34,830 bases of DNA. Source: an uncultured Akkermansia sp. (GTDB taxonomy: Bacteria > Verrucomicrobiota > Verrucomicrobiia > Verrucomicrobiales > Akkermansiaceae). Numbering within the stretch: position 1 is the first letter of the stretch; every line of letters starts with the position of its first letter. The notes beneath the pieces are model-generated. The model saw nothing but the letters and a program-made list of their open reading frames with translations. It was not told where the DNA came from and ran no database searches. Positions 12,787 to 34,830 of the stretch are shown here, one piece after another. The translations under genes and the position numbers were made by a program. The DNA lies in the NCBI GenBank assembly GCA_947588735.1, contig CANQAD010000017.1, positions 1-34,830 of the forward strand, given 5' to 3'.

Positions 12787-13172
12787 AGGGCAAACCCACA
12801 CGTGTCCCAAGAAAAAGCACCCCCGACAGGTCGTTAACGGCACATCATGAAGCATAAGCCATTGGTTATTTACGAATGACGATTGACGATTGACGATTTC
12901 GATTTGAAAAGCTAGCGAGCCGGAGGCTCGGGAAATGCGGAGCGGTAGCGACGGGGAAGGGCGGAACCACGCGCAAGACTAATGAGAAAGCTGAGTGGGG
13001 GAGCGAAGCTGAAACACAAGGGGATTTTCGAGTTACGATTTTTGATTTTCGATTTGGGAAATTTGCGCGCTGGCGCGCGGGGAGGCGAAGCGCTCTGCCA
13101 TTTTCGTCCGAAGAAAACGCATGGGAAATGGGTTCAATGAACCCGGAGAATATTTTATTGGGACACGTGTGG
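12787..13172. repeat. Repeat element E2
   Basis: First of two adjacent elements filling the 940-bp gap before RNase PH. The left end AGGGCAAACCCACACGTGT continues TCCCAAGAAAAAGC; the right end TTATTGGGACACGTGTGGGG is its inverse, including the same ACACGTGT variant. Inside lie TTTACGA/TGACGAT micro-repeats, a hairpin CGAGCC-GGA-GGCTCG (12916-12930), the core ending in GAAACACAAGGGGATTTTCG, and near the right end a hairpin GGGTTC-AAT-GAACCC (13130-13144). No convincing coding sequence. Confidence 0.8.
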
Positions 13173-13642
13173 GGCAAACCACATCCGTCCCAGGAAATAG
13201 CAATCCCAACAGGCGGTTATCGTCGCATCATGGAGCATGAGCCCTTTGTAATTTTCGATTTTCGAATGACGATTTGGAGAATTTGCGCGCTGACGCGCGA
13301 AGCTGCGGAGCGTGAGCGACGGGAAAGAGAGAAACCGCGCGCAAGACTAATGAGAAAGCTTGGCGAGGAAGCGGAGCTGAAGCACAAGCAGATTTTCGAT
13401 TTTCGAATGGCGATTTGGGAAGAGTGCACGCTGGCGTCCGGGGTTGCGAAAGCTCGTGAGGCGAGCTTGAGGCAAGCTTTTGCGAAGCAGAATTTTCGAA
13501 GACGAGAGTGAGAAAGTAGAAAAAAATTTCCAAGCGCCAGCTCGCGCCTCGGTGCGCTCACTTTGTAAATCGTTTATCGTAAACCATAAATTGTAAATGG
13601 GTTGCATGAGTTTTGAACAGCTTTATTGGGACGGATGCGCGC
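13171..13642. repeat. Repeat element E3
   Basis: Abuts E2. Left end GGGGCAAACCACATCCGTCC followed by CAGGAAATAGC; right end CTTTATTGGGACGGATGCGC carries the inverse of the same ATCCGTCCCA variant. It contains two diverged cores (GCGCGCTGACGCGCG near 13285 and a degenerate one near 13425) and a segment (13535-13600) whose reverse complement reappears in E4 at 15850-15910. No transposase or other credible gene. Confidence 0.7.
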
Positions 13643-21262: not shown

Positions 21263-21647
21263 ACCACATTTGTTCCAGGAAAAAGCATCCCCAGCAGGCG
21301 ATTATCGTCGCATAACGAAGAATAACCCATTGATAATTTTCGATTAACGACTGACGATTTGGAAAGAGTGCGCGCTGGCTCTCCAAATCGTCAATCGTAA
21401 CTCGAAACTCGAAAATCCCCTTGTGTTTCAGCTTCGTTCCCCCACTCAGCTTTCTAACCAGTTCTGCGCGCAGTTCCGCCCTCCCCCCGCTGCTCACGCT
21501 CCGCATTTCCCGAGCCTCCGGCTCGCTATCTTTTCAAATCGTGATTCGTAATTCGTAAATCGTAAATAACCAAATGGTTATGACGTATGATATGCCGTTG
21601 ACAACTTATTGGGGATTGCTTTTTCTTGGGGCAAATATGGGTTTGCC
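21263..21647. repeat. Repeat element E5, near-palindromic
   Basis: Both ends are of the left-end type: CCACATTTGTTCCAGGAAAA at the left and, inverted, GGCAAACCCATATTTGCCCC at the right, each followed inward by AAGCATCCCC/AAGCAATCCCC and a GTCGCATAAC or GGCATATCAT block. A single inverted core lies between (stem CGAGCC-GGA-GGCTCG, with AACTGGTTAGAAAGCTGAGT). It fills the space between the pnp promoter and the hemB promoter without overlapping either. Confidence 0.78.
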
Positions 21648-23819: not shown

Positions 23820-24020
23820 ACAACCGTGTTGCCGGATATCACCGTTGATGCGCATCAAAAATCATGACGACAAGCGGTCATCACGCTGATGGCTCTCAAG
23901 ACCCATTTTACGGACATTCATGATTCAAAAAAAACTTCGCAAAGCGCACATCATCAATAAATAGCAAATAGTGTTCCAAAAATCGCAAATAGCAACCGCA
24001 TTTCCTAATGCGGTTGCCTT
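23820..24020 (-). repeat. ~200-bp repeat, copy B, with hairpin overlapping a gene's stop codon
   Basis: Reverse-complement counterpart of 6385-6583. The hairpin (23992-24017) has the same 11-bp arms GCAACCGCATT and AATGCGGTTGC as copy A. The stop codon of the large helical-repeat gene (TAG at 24005-24007) lies in the hairpin loop, so the last codons of that gene (Gln-Pro-His) belong to the repeat. Downstream T-rich sequence (TATTTGCGATTTTT) might let it act as a weak terminator on the minus strand. Confidence 0.75.
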
Positions 24021-26458
24021 GGGGTTTCGCGCTGTGCCCCGGAGAGGATATCGCCGGGCAGAAAATGGGTGCTGCGTATGGCGCGGGCCCAGTCGAGAAA
24101 GGCTTCCGCCTTCTTGGGATCGCGCGGGGCATCGGAAGCCGGTGAGCCGGACCATGCGGCGATATGCTCGGCCAGTTGCGCAGCCTCGCTGAAGCGGTTC
24201 AGGCAGGTAAGACGGTGCACCGCGCCTGCGCCGGCGTAATAATAGAAGAAATCACACGCATTCCCCGGCGGAGAGACTTCTTTGTCGTGCTCCTTCACCA
24301 CGTGCAGATAGTCCTGCAGAGCAACATCGTTGAGCCGGGCGCGTGCGGCGTGGGCCGCGTGCTGCAGACGTGCACGTTCAAACCACACATGCGGCAAATC
24401 GGGGATATCCAGAATGGCTGAGCTTGTTGCGAGCGCGCGGTCGATGCCCGCCTGATCACCCGTGGCGGCGTAAGCATCCGCCAGAATGGTGAGACGGTGT
24501 GCGCGCAGCTCCGGGCTCAATCTGGTCTCGGGAAGAGACTCCAGCAGATCGAGCGCCTCAGGGTGGCGACCGATGCGCGTGAGAACGGACGCCTGTTCAA
24601 TGACGGCAACCGGCGCCAGCGCAGTTCCCATTCGTGCGCATTCTGCGTAGAGTTTGACGGCGTGTTGCAGCGAGGGAAGGGTTGCACAAGCGACGCATTC
24701 CTTGCCGGCATGAAGCAGTGCGGAAGCTTTTTGCTCTCCCGAAGGCAGGTTCCCCGCAAGTGCCAGCAGCACGTCTCGCGCTTCCGCGTGCCGATCAATG
24801 CGTGACAGACGATCCGCCAAGCGCTGGGAGAGGGCGACCTTACGCGGTTGAGATGAGGCTTGCTCGCAGAGGCGGCGCAACAGGATCAGCGTGTTTTCCT
24901 CATTCGGCGGGTTGGCGTTGTCTGCGGCTTTCTCAAGAATCGCCGCGTAGAGCAGCTCATCCTCATCAGACCAGGCGGCGCGCTCCTCGCTGGAGAAGCC
25001 AGGAGTGTTGTAAAGGTGCTGCAGAGGATCGGCAGGAGGGTGAAGTCGAAGCAGGCAAACTCTGGCGCGCACGGCCTGGAGTTTGGAAGGCTGCAGACGC
25101 ATCACCTCCCGCAATTCCGCATCCGCTTGTTCGGCCCGATCTGCCGACAGCATTTGCGCATGGGCGAGTAGCAGCGCCCGGCGTGCCGGGGCGTTTTGTG
25201 CAGCGCGTATAAGTTTTTCGGCGGCTGCCTGGTCGCCGTTGCGCATGTGACAAATCATGGCGTTGACCAGCGCGAGGATTCGCAGACGATCCGGAGCAAT
25301 TTCCGCACAATTCGTGAAGATTTCGGCGGCTTTTGCCGGTTCATCCTGTGAGACCATGGCGCGTAAAAAAAGCGAGTCCGCATCTTCGGATGCCGAAGGA
25401 AAGGATTCGAGCAGTCTGGTGTAGAGCTCCGCCTGGTTCATGTCGCCGCGCAGGATCAGTCGGCGGGTGTGCTCCTGCAGGATGGTGCGCGTAAGCGGTT
25501 CCCCGGGCAAGTCTGCAACGGCGCGGTTGGCCAGCGCCGCAGTATCTGCGCCACGGGCAGTGGCTTCATCCATGAGCAGGATCAGGGCGAAAGCAGCGCG
25601 CTGCGCGTGCGCAGTGTCCTCGGCCCATTCATGGAGTTTGCTGCGAGTGTAGGAGCTTTGCTGGCCCTCTTCGTGCTGATGCAGTCGGCAAAACGCCGCT
25701 TGAAGCAACGGTGATTCCGGATTGGCCGTAATAAATTGCAGCAGGGTTTCTTCGCCCAGGCCGGCGGCGTCCTGTTCGTCATCCGTTTCTTCATCGATGG
25801 GATCGCTGTGGGGCTGGGCGCTTTCTTTCGCGTAGTACAACTCGGCAAGCTCCAATCGTGCAAAGTGGCGGGCCGTCGTGTCCAGCGTGCTGTCATTTTC
25901 CAGCTCACGAGCGTATTCAATGCCGCCGGCAAAATCACTCATCTTGCGCCGCAGGGGCAGCCCCAGCAGCTTGACGATAGATTGAAGTTTTGTGTTTTTT
26001 TGAGCCATTTTCTGCAGCGCGGAGTAGGCGGAGGTGTCGGCGGAGGCGTCACGCGCAGATAGTTGCTGATCGGCAAGTGCCGCTGAGGCAAGCGCCCGGA
26101 TGTGTTCGTCCTGAGAATGGGTGAGCCGTTCTATCATATCGGTGCAGCTAATCTCCGGGCTGTGCTTGGCGCAGTAGAGAAGCCCTCGTGCCGCGTAAGG
26201 GTACAGAGGATGCCCGGCAGGCACTTGCTCCAACAGTTCAGCGGCCTCGGTCAGACGCCCCATTCCCAGGAGGGCGCGCCCCTTCCAGTAGGCTGCTTCC
26301 TCGTCCTTCAGCCCCTGCTTGTCTCTGCGCAGCAGCTGCCAGGCCTGAATCGGTTTTCCTGCGCGCAGCAGTTGTTCTGCCTGATTGTCCGCCTGTCCCG
26401 TCCCGGCTGCAATAGCGAGGATGAGTGAAAGCATGGGAATGGCGGTTTTGGAGAGCAT
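24005..26458 (-). CDS. Large exported helical-repeat (TPR-like) protein
   Basis: 817 residues from the ATG at 26458 (MLSKTAIPMLSLILAIAAG), whose start gives a good signal peptide (cleavage near GTGQA-DN). The rest is Ala/Leu/Glu-rich with many helix pairs of TPR character, for example AEQLLRAGKPIQAWQLLRRD, RLTEAAELLEQVPAGHPLYP and AEARDVLLALAGNLPSGEQK, and ends in a motif around FYYYAGAGAVHRLTCLNRFS. No enzyme motif seen. Role probably as a periplasmic scaffold. It begins 10 nt after the M23 peptidase stop and ends within repeat copy B, which contributes the last residues. Confidence 0.82.
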   Translation of the reverse strand: MLSKTAIPMLSLILAIAAGTGQADNQAEQLLRAGKPIQAWQLLRRDKQGLKDEEAAYWKGRALLGMGRLTEAAELLEQVPAGHPLYPYAARGLLYCAKHSPEISCTDMIERLTHSQDEHIRALASAALADQQLSARDASADTSAYSALQKMAQKNTKLQSIVKLLGLPLRRKMSDFAGGIEYARELENDSTLDTTARHFARLELAELYYAKESAQPHSDPIDEETDDEQDAAGLGEETLLQFITANPESPLLQAAFCRLHQHEEGQQSSYTRSKLHEWAEDTAHAQRAAFALILLMDEATARGADTAALANRAVADLPGEPLTRTILQEHTRRLILRGDMNQAELYTRLLESFPSASEDADSLFLRAMVSQDEPAKAAEIFTNCAEIAPDRLRILALVNAMICHMRNGDQAAAEKLIRAAQNAPARRALLLAHAQMLSADRAEQADAELREVMRLQPSKLQAVRARVCLLRLHPPADPLQHLYNTPGFSSEERAAWSDEDELLYAAILEKAADNANPPNEENTLILLRRLCEQASSQPRKVALSQRLADRLSRIDRHAEARDVLLALAGNLPSGEQKASALLHAGKECVACATLPSLQHAVKLYAECARMGTALAPVAVIEQASVLTRIGRHPEALDLLESLPETRLSPELRAHRLTILADAYAATGDQAGIDRALATSSAILDIPDLPHVWFERARLQHAAHAARARLNDVALQDYLHVVKEHDKEVSPPGNACDFFYYYAGAGAVHRLTCLNRFSEAAQLAEHIAAWSGSPASDAPRDPKKAEAFLDWARAIRSTHFLPGDILSGAQRETPRQPH

Positions 26459-26468
26459 GGAACGGGGG

Positions 26469-27572
26469 CTACTTTTTGGGAGCGGGCATTCCTTCGCTCG
26501 CAGGGAGAGCATGGGTGTCCGGCGCGGGCTTTTTTTGTTGGAAAATGTGTTGAATGTAGCGCAGACCGGAAGCGGTAAGCGCAGCATCCTTACTGCTGTT
26601 TTTCACACGATTGACGGTTACGTTTTGCTGAAGCGTGGGCACGGAAATGCAGCTGATGACTGTCGGTGCGGAGACAGATTGCGTTGCCGGGTAGAAGCCA
26701 AGAGGAATTCCTTCCGCACTGAAAGCTACATCCAGCGACCGGGTGTCCGGCGTTATGGGCCTGCGCAGCAAAAATGGGTGTCTGCGCAGTATGTCTACCT
26801 TCTCCCCGTGGTAGGGCACGCGCACGCGGTAATGCTCCTTCAGGCTCATCCAATGTTTGCGCAGGGAGAGCGGTTGCCCTTGCGCACAGGCGCGCAGAAC
26901 GGGTACGGGGTCAATGCCCGCCAGGTTGAGCCCGTTGTAGATGCCATGCTTGTTGGTAGGCGGGCAGAACTGGTCGTAGTGCGAGTGCAGCATCAGCCCG
27001 ATTTCCAAGTGCACGTGGGAGCGCTCACGGTTGATGCCCACACCGCTGTGGCCCATTTTTCCGATCACGTTGCCAGTCCCCACGCGCTGGCCGATTTGGC
27101 AGTCCACACGGGCCAGGTGGGCGTAGAGGCTGTAAATGACGCCTTCGGGGACGCGGTGGCTCACCACCACATAGCGACCGTAGTTGCTCAGACCGGGGTT
27201 TGCGTTGACATAAGACACAACGCCGGGAGCAACGGGGTGAATGAGGTCGAGCGGTTCTCCAGCCGCATCGCGCTGCATGGGCTTGATGTCCGCTCCCTCG
27301 TGAATGCGCGAAAACATCACGCTCCCATCTGAGGCGCGGAAGGGATTGCGTACCATGCCGTATCCTCCGGCCTGCCAGGGTTTGCTCTTTTCGCCTTCAA
27401 AGTTGCGGTCGCAGTACATGTAAAAATTTTCCCCTCGGCCGGAGATGATGTGTCGGTTGGCAGTGGGAAAGCGGTACACCAGATCCGCGCGATCGGGCGG
27501 CGTCATCTGCGCTTGCCCAAGCGCGGCTCCGCACAGCAGCAGGGTAATTGATTTCTGGAAAGGCCGCCTCAT
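26469..27572 (-). CDS. M23 family metallopeptidase
   Basis: 367 residues with a signal peptide (about 1-22, cleavage near GQAQ). The LytM-type zinc site is complete: HEGAD (His91, Asp95), SLYAHL (His152) and SHVHLEI (His186, His188). Such enzymes cleave peptide cross-links of peptidoglycan or processed envelope proteins. A long C-terminal region (about 220-367) follows, ending in a Pro/Ala/Lys-rich tail and showing no motif I recognise. Its ATG overlaps the stop of the upstream lipoprotein gene (ATGA, 27569-27572) and the helical-repeat protein follows, so all three likely act together in the envelope. Confidence 0.9.
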   Translation of the reverse strand: MRRPFQKSITLLLCGAALGQAQMTPPDRADLVYRFPTANRHIISGRGENFYMYCDRNFEGEKSKPWQAGGYGMVRNPFRASDGSVMFSRIHEGADIKPMQRDAAGEPLDLIHPVAPGVVSYVNANPGLSNYGRYVVVSHRVPEGVIYSLYAHLARVDCQIGQRVGTGNVIGKMGHSGVGINRERSHVHLEIGLMLHSHYDQFCPPTNKHGIYNGLNLAGIDPVPVLRACAQGQPLSLRKHWMSLKEHYRVRVPYHGEKVDILRRHPFLLRRPITPDTRSLDVAFSAEGIPLGFYPATQSVSAPTVISCISVPTLQQNVTVNRVKNSSKDAALTASGLRYIQHIFQQKKPAPDTHALPASEGMPAPKK

Positions 27573-28150
27573 CGCGCTCCGCTTGAAAAGATTTCGCCGA
27601 TCGCTCGTCCGGTGTAGTCCCTTTTCCCTTTTTGTTTCGTCGGGTCTATCTTGGGCAGGGGGCGCGGGTTTTTCTTCATAAAGCGTTTCTTTTCCATTTC
27701 CTCATTTTCCGGCGGAATGTCGCGCGCAATTTCCTTCAGGTCATAGCCATTCAGTCCGCCCCATATCACCAGCTTGCCATCGGTAATGGGTCTGTCAATG
27801 CGCACGGGTTGGAAAGCCAGCCCGTTTACCACCGGCAAGATAAGCATACCCTCTTTCTCCAGAGATACGCTGTACAGGCGGTTGACCAGCTCGTCCTTCA
27901 GCGTCAGCACGATCCCGTAACTGCCGTCCTGCATGTTCATGAAAGAATGGTAGGATTTGAAATTCTTGTGCGTGACGATGGGCATGCGCGTGTACGGGCG
28001 CCCGTTGTACATCAGCAGGAACTTGGACGTGCTGCCCTCGGTGCTCCTGGCCTCTGAAAGGAAGAAAATGGGATATGGCTTCTGTTGGCATGCGCTGAGC
28101 AGCAGAACAAGCGCCGCGAGCATCAACAAGTGGCATCGAATGGTCTTCAT
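27569..28150 (-). CDS. Lipoprotein with a SecD P1-head-like domain
   Basis: 193 residues from the ATG at 28150. Signal MKTIRCHLLMLAALVLLLSAC has a good lipobox (LSAC, Cys21). Residues ~75-140 (YGIVLTLKDELVNRLYSVS, LPVVNGLAFQPVRIDRPITD, GKLVIWGGLNGYDLKEIARD) follow the pattern of the SecDF first head domain (gkVlsaPvvnepItgG...ItGnF...eA..LA). The C terminus is basic and polar (KKRFMKKNPRPLPKIDPTKQ). No transmembrane SecD portion is present. This is a resemblance seen by eye. First gene of an operon with the M23 peptidase and the helical-repeat protein. Confidence 0.78.
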   Translation of the reverse strand: MKTIRCHLLMLAALVLLLSACQQKPYPIFFLSEARSTEGSTSKFLLMYNGRPYTRMPIVTHKNFKSYHSFMNMQDGSYGIVLTLKDELVNRLYSVSLEKEGMLILPVVNGLAFQPVRIDRPITDGKLVIWGGLNGYDLKEIARDIPPENEEMEKKRFMKKNPRPLPKIDPTKQKGKRDYTGRAIGEIFSSGAR

Positions 28151-28192: not shown

Positions 28193-28220
28193 GCCTAAAA
28201 ACAGCCCCCGCGGCAAACAC

Positions 28221-28707
28221 CGGGGCAAATGCACATTTGTCCCAAGAAAAAGCCATCCCCGTAAGTTGTTAACGGCACATCATACAGCATAAAGAATTGA
28301 TTATTTGCGAATTACGATTTACGAACCACGATTTGAATATCAGCGCGCCGGCGCGCGGGGTGCGAAGCAAAAGGAAGCGGAATTTTTGGAGACGAGATGC
28401 GATGATCAAGGGAAAGCATCCGGAGTGATGCCATGCCGGGTTGACTCAGCGCCGCCCCATCGGCGCTTGCTTCGGAGCCGCCTCACGACTCTTGCCTCAA
28501 ACTCGCCCCACGCGTTTTCGCCTCTGCGAGGCAAAAGCTGCGCTTTTGTCCAATCCTCCTGCGCGCCCTCGGAGGCTTTCACGGCCTTGCTGAATCGTCC
28601 ATGGTTTGCTGTCTCGCTGGCTTCCTTCTTTCGTCCATAGAAAACGCAAGGGAAATGGGTTCAATGAGCCCGGAGAATATTTTTGGGGGACACGTGTGCT
28701 TTTGCGC
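28221..28707. repeat. Repeat element E6
   Basis: Fills most of the gap before aconitase. Left end GGGGCAAATGCACATTTGTC then CCAAGAAAAAGCC; right end GGGGGACACGTGTGC. The stem GCGCGC-CG-GCGCGC lies near 28345. The segment 28416-28442 matches E1 (5415-5442), and the right end shares the block AAATGGGTTCAATGAGCCCG with E2, where the hairpin arm differs by one base that still pairs as G-U. The right end lies about 20 bp upstream of the aconitase promoter. Confidence 0.75.
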
Positions 28708-31736: not shown

Positions 31737-32577
31737 TGACCAGGGCAAACGCTACATTTGTTCCATGGAATAGCACCCGCAATGGGCGATTAACGGTACG
31801 CCATAAAGCGTAAGATGTTGGTTATTTACGATTTACGATTTACGATTTACGATTTGGGAAGCTAGCGCGCAGGCGCGCGGGGAGGCGGAGCTGGAGTGAC
31901 GGGGGAGAGTGGAACCGTGCGCAGAACTGGTTAGAAAGCTGAGCGGGGGAGCGGAGCGTGAGCGGCGGGGGAGAGTGGAACCGCGGGCGGAGGTGGTTAG
32001 AAAGCGGCGGGGGAGCGGAGCTGAGACGCGAGGGGATTTTCGATTCTCGATTGACGATTTGGGAAGCTAGCGCGCTGGCGCGCGGGGAGGCGGAGCGTGA
32101 GCGGCGGGGGAGGGTAGAACCGTGCGCAGAACTGGTTAGAAAGCGGCGGGGGAGCGGAGCTGAAACACAAGGGGATTTTCGATTCTTGAGTTACGATTGA
32201 CGATTTGGGAAGATAGCGCGCAGGCGCGAGGGGAGGCGGAGCGTGAGCGGCGGGGGAGGGTGGAACCGCGGGCGGAGGTGGTTAGAAAGCGGCGGGGGAG
32301 CGGAGCTGAGACGCAAGAGGATTTTCGATTTTCGATTTTCGATTTTCGAGTTACGATTGACGATTTGGGAAGCTAGCGCGCAGGCGCGCGGCGAGGCGGA
32401 GCTGGAGTGACGGGGGAGAGTGGAACCGTGCGCAGAACTGGTTAGAAAGCTGAGCGGGGGAGCGGAGCTGAAACACAAGGGGATTTTCGATTGACGATTT
32501 GGGAAGCCAGTGAGCACTCTTTCCAGATCGTCATCGTCAATAGCAAGCGCATGTCCCCATGCGGTTGCCCTGGGTCA
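31737..32577. repeat. Repeat element E7 with four tandem cores
   Basis: The largest element, occupying the whole gap between the tRNA promoter and aspS. Terminal inverted repeat TGACCAGGGCAAACGC at the left and, inverted, TGACCCAGGGCAACCGC at the right. Inside, cores start near 31861, 32066, 32212 and 32372 (spacing 205, 146 and 160 bp), each opening with GCTAGCGCGC or GATAGCGCGC and a GCGCGC-AG-GCGCGC-type stem and ending near GGGGATTTTCGAT; the first carries an internal partial duplication. Micro-repeats TTTACGA (x4, about 31823-31855) and TTTTCGAT (about 32318-32350) separate parts. The right end is a hairpin (32543-32568, arms GCAAGCGCATG and CATGCGGTTGC) 20 nt beyond the aspS stop. Confidence 0.85.
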
Positions 32578-34526: not shown

Positions 34527-34830
34527 CGGGCAAACGCCACATTTGTCCCATGGAATAGCACCCGTAATGGGCGGTTCATGGCGAGGTATATGGCGGAAGA
34601 CGTTGATTATTTACGATTTACGATTTACGATTTGGGGAATTCGCGCGCTGGCGCGCGGGGAGGCGGAGCGTGAGCGGCGGGGGAGGGTGGAACTGCGGGC
34701 GGAGGTGGTTAGAAAGCTGAGTGGGGGAGCGGAGCTGAAACGCGAGGGGATTTACGATTTACGAAGTCAACCATAATTTGGTATAGCGTGAAATTTTTAT
34801 GGAGCAACATTTCAGAATAAGGCTCCGCTT
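34527..34830. repeat. Repeat element E8 (continues past right edge)
   Basis: Left end CGGGCAAACGCCACATTTGT then CCCATGGAATAGCACCC, most similar to the left end of E7 (shared CATGGAATAGCACCCG). TTTACGA micro-repeats (x3) lead into one core with the stem GCGCGC-TG-GCGCGC and AGGTGGTTAGAAAGCTGAGT. After about 34765 the sequence becomes AT-rich and unlike the other members; the right end is not seen. Confidence 0.75.

Follow-up and report, generated by a model that had tools for sequence, protein, structure and literature searches.

Enzymes that cut the cell wall need control, and we know of no controller of such enzymes in the Verrucomicrobiota, the phylum that includes the gut symbiont Akkermansia. 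Here, we ask what a lipoprotein that resembles one domain of the SecDF export motor is doing directly in front of the gene of a wall peptidase in an uncultured Akkermansia sp. The stretch of DNA that was analysed, hereafter the window, has 34,830 nucleotides and corresponds to positions 1 to 34,830 of contig CANQAD010000017.1 (assembly GCA_947588735.1, about 2.2 Mb). On its minus strand, from 28150 down to 24005, it carries in this order the genes for the lipoprotein, for an exported peptidase of family M23 and for a large exported protein with similarity to tetratricopeptide repeat (TPR) proteins. A first-pass annotation, made from the sequence without database searches, had proposed that the three products form a complex for post-export quality control or for wall remodelling. 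We found that the unit of conservation is the pair of lipoprotein and M23 genes, which is kept across the class Verrucomicrobiia, far more widely than the trio.

The lipoprotein begins with a signal peptide that has the lipobox LSAC at residues 18-21, with Cys21 as its cysteine, and a loose lipobox-like expression matches 76 of its 93 relatives. When the window sequence (P0001) was searched alone, it gave no match to the SecDF P1-head family PF22599 in Pfam at E ≤ 1, and no SecD match was found for it in NCBIfam or, by sequence, in the Protein Data Bank. Its resemblance to the P1 head of SecD, which the first-pass annotation had pointed out, becomes apparent from the family and from the fold, not from the single sequence. 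The search for relatives covered 59 genomes and matched the lipoprotein in 57. When PF22599 was run against 57 genomes of the order, it hit members of the lipoprotein family in G064 (E = 2.3e-4), G046 (8.5e-4), G051 (0.03), G043 (0.07) and G050 (0.09), with scores of 15-22 bits that lie below the 27-bit cut-off. When 40 members from the order were scanned singly, PF22599 was the most-matched family (5/40 at E ≤ 1, best 3.4e-4), and 26 of 69 members from the class matched it at E ≤ 0.1 (best 2.8e-6), while the NCBIfam secD model was matched by 11 of these 69 (best 1e-4). Profile-profile alignment of the lipoprotein family with the SecD heads of the order (n = 23), done with hhalign, gave E values of 4.8e-9 and 9.4e-13. 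In the reverse direction, the lipoprotein family profiles retrieved long frames, mostly of 770-945 amino acids, and all four that were checked (4/4) are SecDF by Pfam. The only weak hits of the single protein, to the coronavirus C30 or 3C-like protease (E = 0.2), are at chance level, and other members of the family do not share them.

The AlphaFold2 model of the lipoprotein has a predicted local distance difference test score (pLDDT) of 96-98 across residues 51-140. All seven Foldseek matches of this model at E ≤ 0.001 are SecDF proteins (7/7). With VIA-align, the model superimposed on chain 3aqo_A with a Z score of 11.4 and a root mean square deviation of 3.5 Å over 112 aligned residues, and the first unrelated chain reached a Z score of only 3.8. 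The match covers residues 26-147, a larger segment than the residues 75-140 that had been named before. Judged by family profiles and the predicted model, the whole folded part of the lipoprotein is thus a SecDF P1 head. The protein is not SecD itself, because it lacks a transmembrane part and a SecDF is retained in the genome as well: Pfam finds neither the SecD_SecF_C transmembrane domain nor a P1 base in the 193 residues, only the N-terminal lipoprotein signal, and a separate open frame of 875 amino acids with a SecD head lies elsewhere in the same genome. Together with the presence of the lipoprotein in 57 of 59 genomes, this second frame also rules out a broken or displaced piece of SecD.

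The folded part is followed by a Lys/Pro-rich tail (residues 150-193), which is modelled with low confidence and carries KRDYTGRAIGEIF. Its final segment, residues 161-193, has a conserved end in most of the 35 loci of the genus, with motifs such as RDYTGRAIGEIF, KDFTGRTVGEIF and KDEHGRIIPELY; this end is missing or changed in L018, L020, L024, L026 and L035-L039. Since a conserved motif sits in a flexible tail, sequence and model together suggest a predicted docking site.

Detached SecD heads are also present elsewhere. Positions 1333-1818 of locus L076, from another family of the order, encode a free-standing exported SecD-head protein of 161 amino acids that adjoins oxidoreductase-like genes; SecD heads have become detached, or have spread in detached form, more than once. 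At G017:C1:1388197-1388865, and at similar places in other genomes of the Akkermansia group, frames of 240-565 amino acids contain one or two SecD-head matches and are separate from SecDF. The PF22599 search did not find such a second match in the genome of the window.

The product of the second gene matches the Pfam Peptidase M23 family with 50.6 bits, against a curated cut-off of 28.7. Members of M23 are defined by the zinc-ligand motifs HxxxD and HxH. Both motifs and the catalytic histidine are present, and two alignments, of 35 and of 76 sequences, show no variation at H91, D95, H152, H186 and H188. The conserved C-terminal region of the protein reaches about residue 345. The model has a pLDDT of 90.9, and its structural matches include the LytM domain of DipM, Csd1/Csd2, ShyA and LytM. 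The Pfam score and the retention of every zinc ligand agree with the earlier description of a complete LytM-type peptidase. As the zinc ligands are invariant, the protein is likely an active metallopeptidase, and a role in wall remodelling is plausible for the same reason. Membership of the family points to peptidoglycan as its probable substrate. The main text of PMC12283558 describes the peptidoglycan of Verrucomicrobium spinosum as canonical, with tetra-tetrapeptides, so that the Verrucomicrobiota would offer this peptidase an ordinary cross-linked wall to cut. The plasmid collection held no full-length relative of the M23 protein, with two partial matches.

The linkage of the two genes was followed across genomes. 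Among loci L005-L061, which represent one locus for each genome with a lipoprotein match, an orthologous M23 gene lies directly downstream of the lipoprotein gene in 50 of 57. The other seven comprise L030 and L061, which are cut by contig ends, L043, L044, L046 and L049, which belong to genera g8 and g16, and L018, which has no M23 gene. At L018 (genome G032), the lipoprotein gene directly adjoins the TPR-like gene, and the rest of that genome has no M23 ortholog either. Of 288 genomes sampled from the phylum, 138 have the M23 family at E ≤ 1e-20. For the class, the places of M23 were compared with those of lipoprotein-profile matches in 94 genomes. Both genes are present in 74 of these and both are absent in nine (Fisher value for co-occurrence 2e-6, with kinship ignored), and in 70 of the 74 the lipoprotein gene is directly upstream of M23 on the same strand. 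In this count, second matches in lipoprotein-bearing genomes were excluded and the matches of 15 genomes were dropped as SecDF; a SecDF-sized frame was seen for G117, G137, G164, G322 and G207, and SecDF status was assumed for the other ten (G094, G099, G123, G134, G149, G167, G224, G272, G330 and G336). In other classes, a head domain upstream of M23 was found in none of the 19 genomes inspected out of 55 that bear M23. These occurrences indicate that M23 is the more widespread gene in the phylum, and that the lipoprotein was either acquired beside it in this class or lost from the others.

The two genes are also close to each other. In 93 loci, a head-domain gene precedes M23; in 82 of these the M23 start codon lies within 30 nucleotides of the lipoprotein stop, when the nearest in-frame start is used, a choice that favours closeness; the distance is -1 in 13/93, besides the -4 overlap seen in the window (Table 1). 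Long lipoprotein frames in G265, G283 and G250 were considered as natural fusions of the two proteins, and M23 is in a separate frame each time. The co-occurrence of the genes, which the first-pass annotation had put forward as a check, is therefore conserved for the pair. That annotation would have been contradicted by a lack of both SecD similarity and gene conservation, and both were found.

The third gene has a narrower distribution. Its product scored 29.3 bits with PF12895, against a cut-off of 27.2, and remained under the cut-off with the other TPR models. A homolog is present in 34 of the 35 loci of the genus, the exception being L030, which stops at the contig edge. The three genes follow one another without a break in 33 of the 35, L018 being without M23 and L030 cut by the contig end. 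Outside the genus, the homolog was found in none of 57 loci (L040-L061, L125-L159), and among 80 named loci 30 have it (L164-L193) and the remaining 50 do not; in these counts, some loci are short on the TPR side and a more distant copy would escape. The entries for L164-L193 are titled Akkermansia, Akkermansiaceae, Verrucomicrobiales or uncultured bacterium. By this comparison of neighbourhoods, the TPR-like gene is a lineage-specific addition in the Akkermansia group. The conserved trio of the earlier proposal thus stands for the lipoprotein and M23, class-wide, and falls for the third gene. Because the Akkermansia group is the only one in which this gene joins the pair, a complex of three would be at most a genus-level elaboration of the pair.

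What, then, could the pair do? We give an even chance to the lipoprotein being a dedicated membrane-anchored partner, either a regulator or a dedicated holdase, of the M23 peptidoglycan endopeptidase. The core is a two-gene envelope operon, in which the second gene encodes a secreted endopeptidase that, by its conserved residues, is very likely catalytically active, and the first gene encodes a lipoprotein whose sole folded domain is a detached SecDF P1 head. In SecDF, this domain is believed to deal with polypeptide beyond the membrane. The head would bind the peptidase, either as a whole or by one of its segments, and, in Akkermansia, the conserved C-terminal tail of the lipoprotein may bind it as well. 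In this way the lipoprotein could hold, place or control the peptidase at what is presumably the membrane face of the wall, with peptidoglycan as the putative substrate and control possible in either direction. In Akkermansia, the TPR-like protein would be added, perhaps as a scaffold. According to PMC9508474, the P1 domain of SecDF stimulates precursor transport and its I form is thought to handle the precursor, and PMC8669966 reports a hydrophobic pocket in the SecD P1 head. With these properties of the head and the strong linkage to one apparently active M23, a lipid-anchored partner that binds the peptidase and controls or places it is the simplest reading.

Several observations weigh against this reading. 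The class includes nine genomes (9/94) with M23 and no lipoprotein and two (2/94; G056, G155) with the lipoprotein and no M23, the two genes are apart in 4/74 (G043, G047, G050 and G192), and in G032, of the Akkermansia group, M23 is missing from between the lipoprotein and TPR-like genes. M23 also occurs in 55 genomes of other classes (138 minus 83). Since M23 is found without the lipoprotein, it can work without it. Furthermore, in an analysis of paired-column mutual information, the top pair (lipoprotein residue 63, M23 residue 202) had a z of 6.02, and the maximum of shuffles within close clusters was also 6.02. A reading of the genes as conserved neighbours that share transcription and no mechanism could draw on this equality and on their separation in four genomes with neither lost; the order and the coupling are nevertheless kept in distant families of the class, and we hold such a relationship to be very improbable. 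The main rival, which we regard as unlikely, makes the lipoprotein a general holdase or Sec-linked factor for many exported proteins and M23 a mere neighbour in the operon. It would account for SecDF heads being the only good fold relatives of the lipoprotein, for the part of the SecD-head glycine framework that the family retains, and for the free-standing heads of the same order that adjoin unrelated genes, such as that of L076. A general factor offers no easy explanation of a tie to one particular M23 gene across the class (70/74), and the joint absence of both genes in 9/94 genomes does not fit it either.

The activity of M23 enzymes is often restrained, and the lipoprotein is encoded first and is probably translationally coupled, so that a lock would be made before the enzyme. 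The lipoprotein could then be an inhibitor that silences the endopeptidase until it is needed, instead of activating or placing it. However, no inhibitory segment was recognised in the lipoprotein, and M23 persists alone in nine genomes of the class and in other classes, which leaves this version rather doubtful. The earlier idea, in which the three proteins are obligate partners in quality control after export, agrees with the consecutive genes in 33 of 35 genus loci, but the TPR-like gene is absent from 57/57 loci outside the genus and from 50/80 named loci, M23 is chiefly a family of wall peptidases, and neither a protease of unfolded proteins nor a link to stress was seen. Quality control is thus unsupported, and the obligate trio is highly improbable.

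The ancestry of the head allows one further idea. The lipoprotein might grip newly exported M23, or unfolded chains that await passage through the wall, such that the mesh would be opened only at export sites. We consider this a speculative and rather unlikely variant. If true, secretion would be coupled to wall opening across the Verrucomicrobiia, with a repurposed piece of the export motor as the control subunit.

The boundaries of the three genes are given in Table 1. The 4-nucleotide ATGA overlap and the 10-nucleotide gap between the second and third genes had been read correctly before, as the start codons in the sequence confirm. The gap depends on the ATG of the TPR-like gene at 26458, which gives a signal-peptide-like start; the list of open reading frames begins this gene at an in-frame ATG at 26587. 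Between 23700 and 28700, no sigma-70-like promoter was found, and terminator-like sites are no more frequent than in shuffled sequence (6 against a mean of 5.7).

Table 1 Features of the lipoprotein-M23 locus in the window.
Feature	Position	Strand	Basis
Lipoprotein with stand-alone SecDF P1-head domain (predicted), 193 amino acids	27569..28150	-	ATG at 28150, stop ends 27569; profiles, model, fold comparison
Exported M23 (LytM-type) peptidase (predicted), 367 amino acids	26469..27572	-	ATG at 27572, stop ends 26469; Pfam, alignments, model
Exported TPR-like helical-repeat protein (predicted), 817 amino acids	24005..26458	-	Pfam; neighbourhood comparison
ATGA, lipoprotein stop overlapping M23 start, 4 nucleotides	27569..27572	-	Sequence; -4 geometry shared by 24/93 related loci
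Possible intrinsic terminator, about 120 nucleotides beyond the third gene	23863..23885	-	Weak; 6 such sites in region, shuffle mean 5.7

The window also contains repeats. A dispersed intergenic repeat of about 125-155 nucleotides is located at 31797-32516, 34575-34764, 12883-13448, 21431-21560 and 28218-28336. It is composed of GATTTACGATTT/CGATTTGGGAA runs followed by GCGCGC-rich sequence and is partly in tandem with a spacing of 146 nucleotides; one copy has 69 matches in the genome and no match in Rfam. A stretch of 70 nucleotides at 13102-13171 recurs at 28629-28698 with 90% identity, upstream of two unrelated genes that we take to be RNase PH-like and aconitase-like. It has no Rfam match, and the copy at 13102-13171 has the inverted repeat GGGTTCAATGAACCC. 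An exact tandem repeat of 18 nucleotides, TGGTCCTTGTTCTGCTGC, occupies positions 1-110, at the contig edge.

Compared with known systems, the lipoprotein shares its fold and profile homology with the P1 heads of SecD and SecDF (PF22599; 3aqo and 5yhf from Thermus thermophilus, 5xan and 5xap from Deinococcus radiodurans). Unlike SecDF, it lacks the P1 base, the transmembrane helices and SecD_SecF_C and would be held by a lipid anchor instead; the SAP motif of SecD heads is not kept. Other free-standing heads of the Verrucomicrobiales, such as L076, are likewise exported single P1 heads, but they have other neighbours, and L076 is far closer to SecD (PF22599, E = 1.3e-25). The peptidase has its fold, zinc ligands and catalytic histidines in common with LytM, ShyA and Csd1/Csd2, and differs from them in its own conserved C-terminal region and in the SecD-head lipoprotein encoded alongside. 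The kinds of partner known to us for other M23 proteins are not SecD-like. Elsewhere, the lipoprotein NlpI, a TPR protein, acts with MepS. The lipoprotein ActS, itself a degenerate LytM protein, is described in PMC8360153 as acting on amidases. What these two cases share with the pair is the idea of a lipoprotein that acts on a wall hydrolase. Neither NlpI nor ActS has, as far as we know, a SecD head. The titles and abstract openings searched, on SecDF heads, wall hydrolases, Akkermansia and the Verrucomicrobiota, gave no description of the pair, and the main text of a paper on essential genes of V. spinosum (PMC12283558), which also reports targeted mutagenesis in this species, has no mention of M23, SecD or a lipoprotein. 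Each part is therefore of a known kind, and within this searched literature the combination of a SecD-head lipoprotein and a wall peptidase in a class-wide operon was not met. The pair is a concrete candidate for a controller of a wall-cutting enzyme in the Verrucomicrobiota, and a soluble single-domain SecD head with a testable binding partner could also reveal the role of the head in SecDF.

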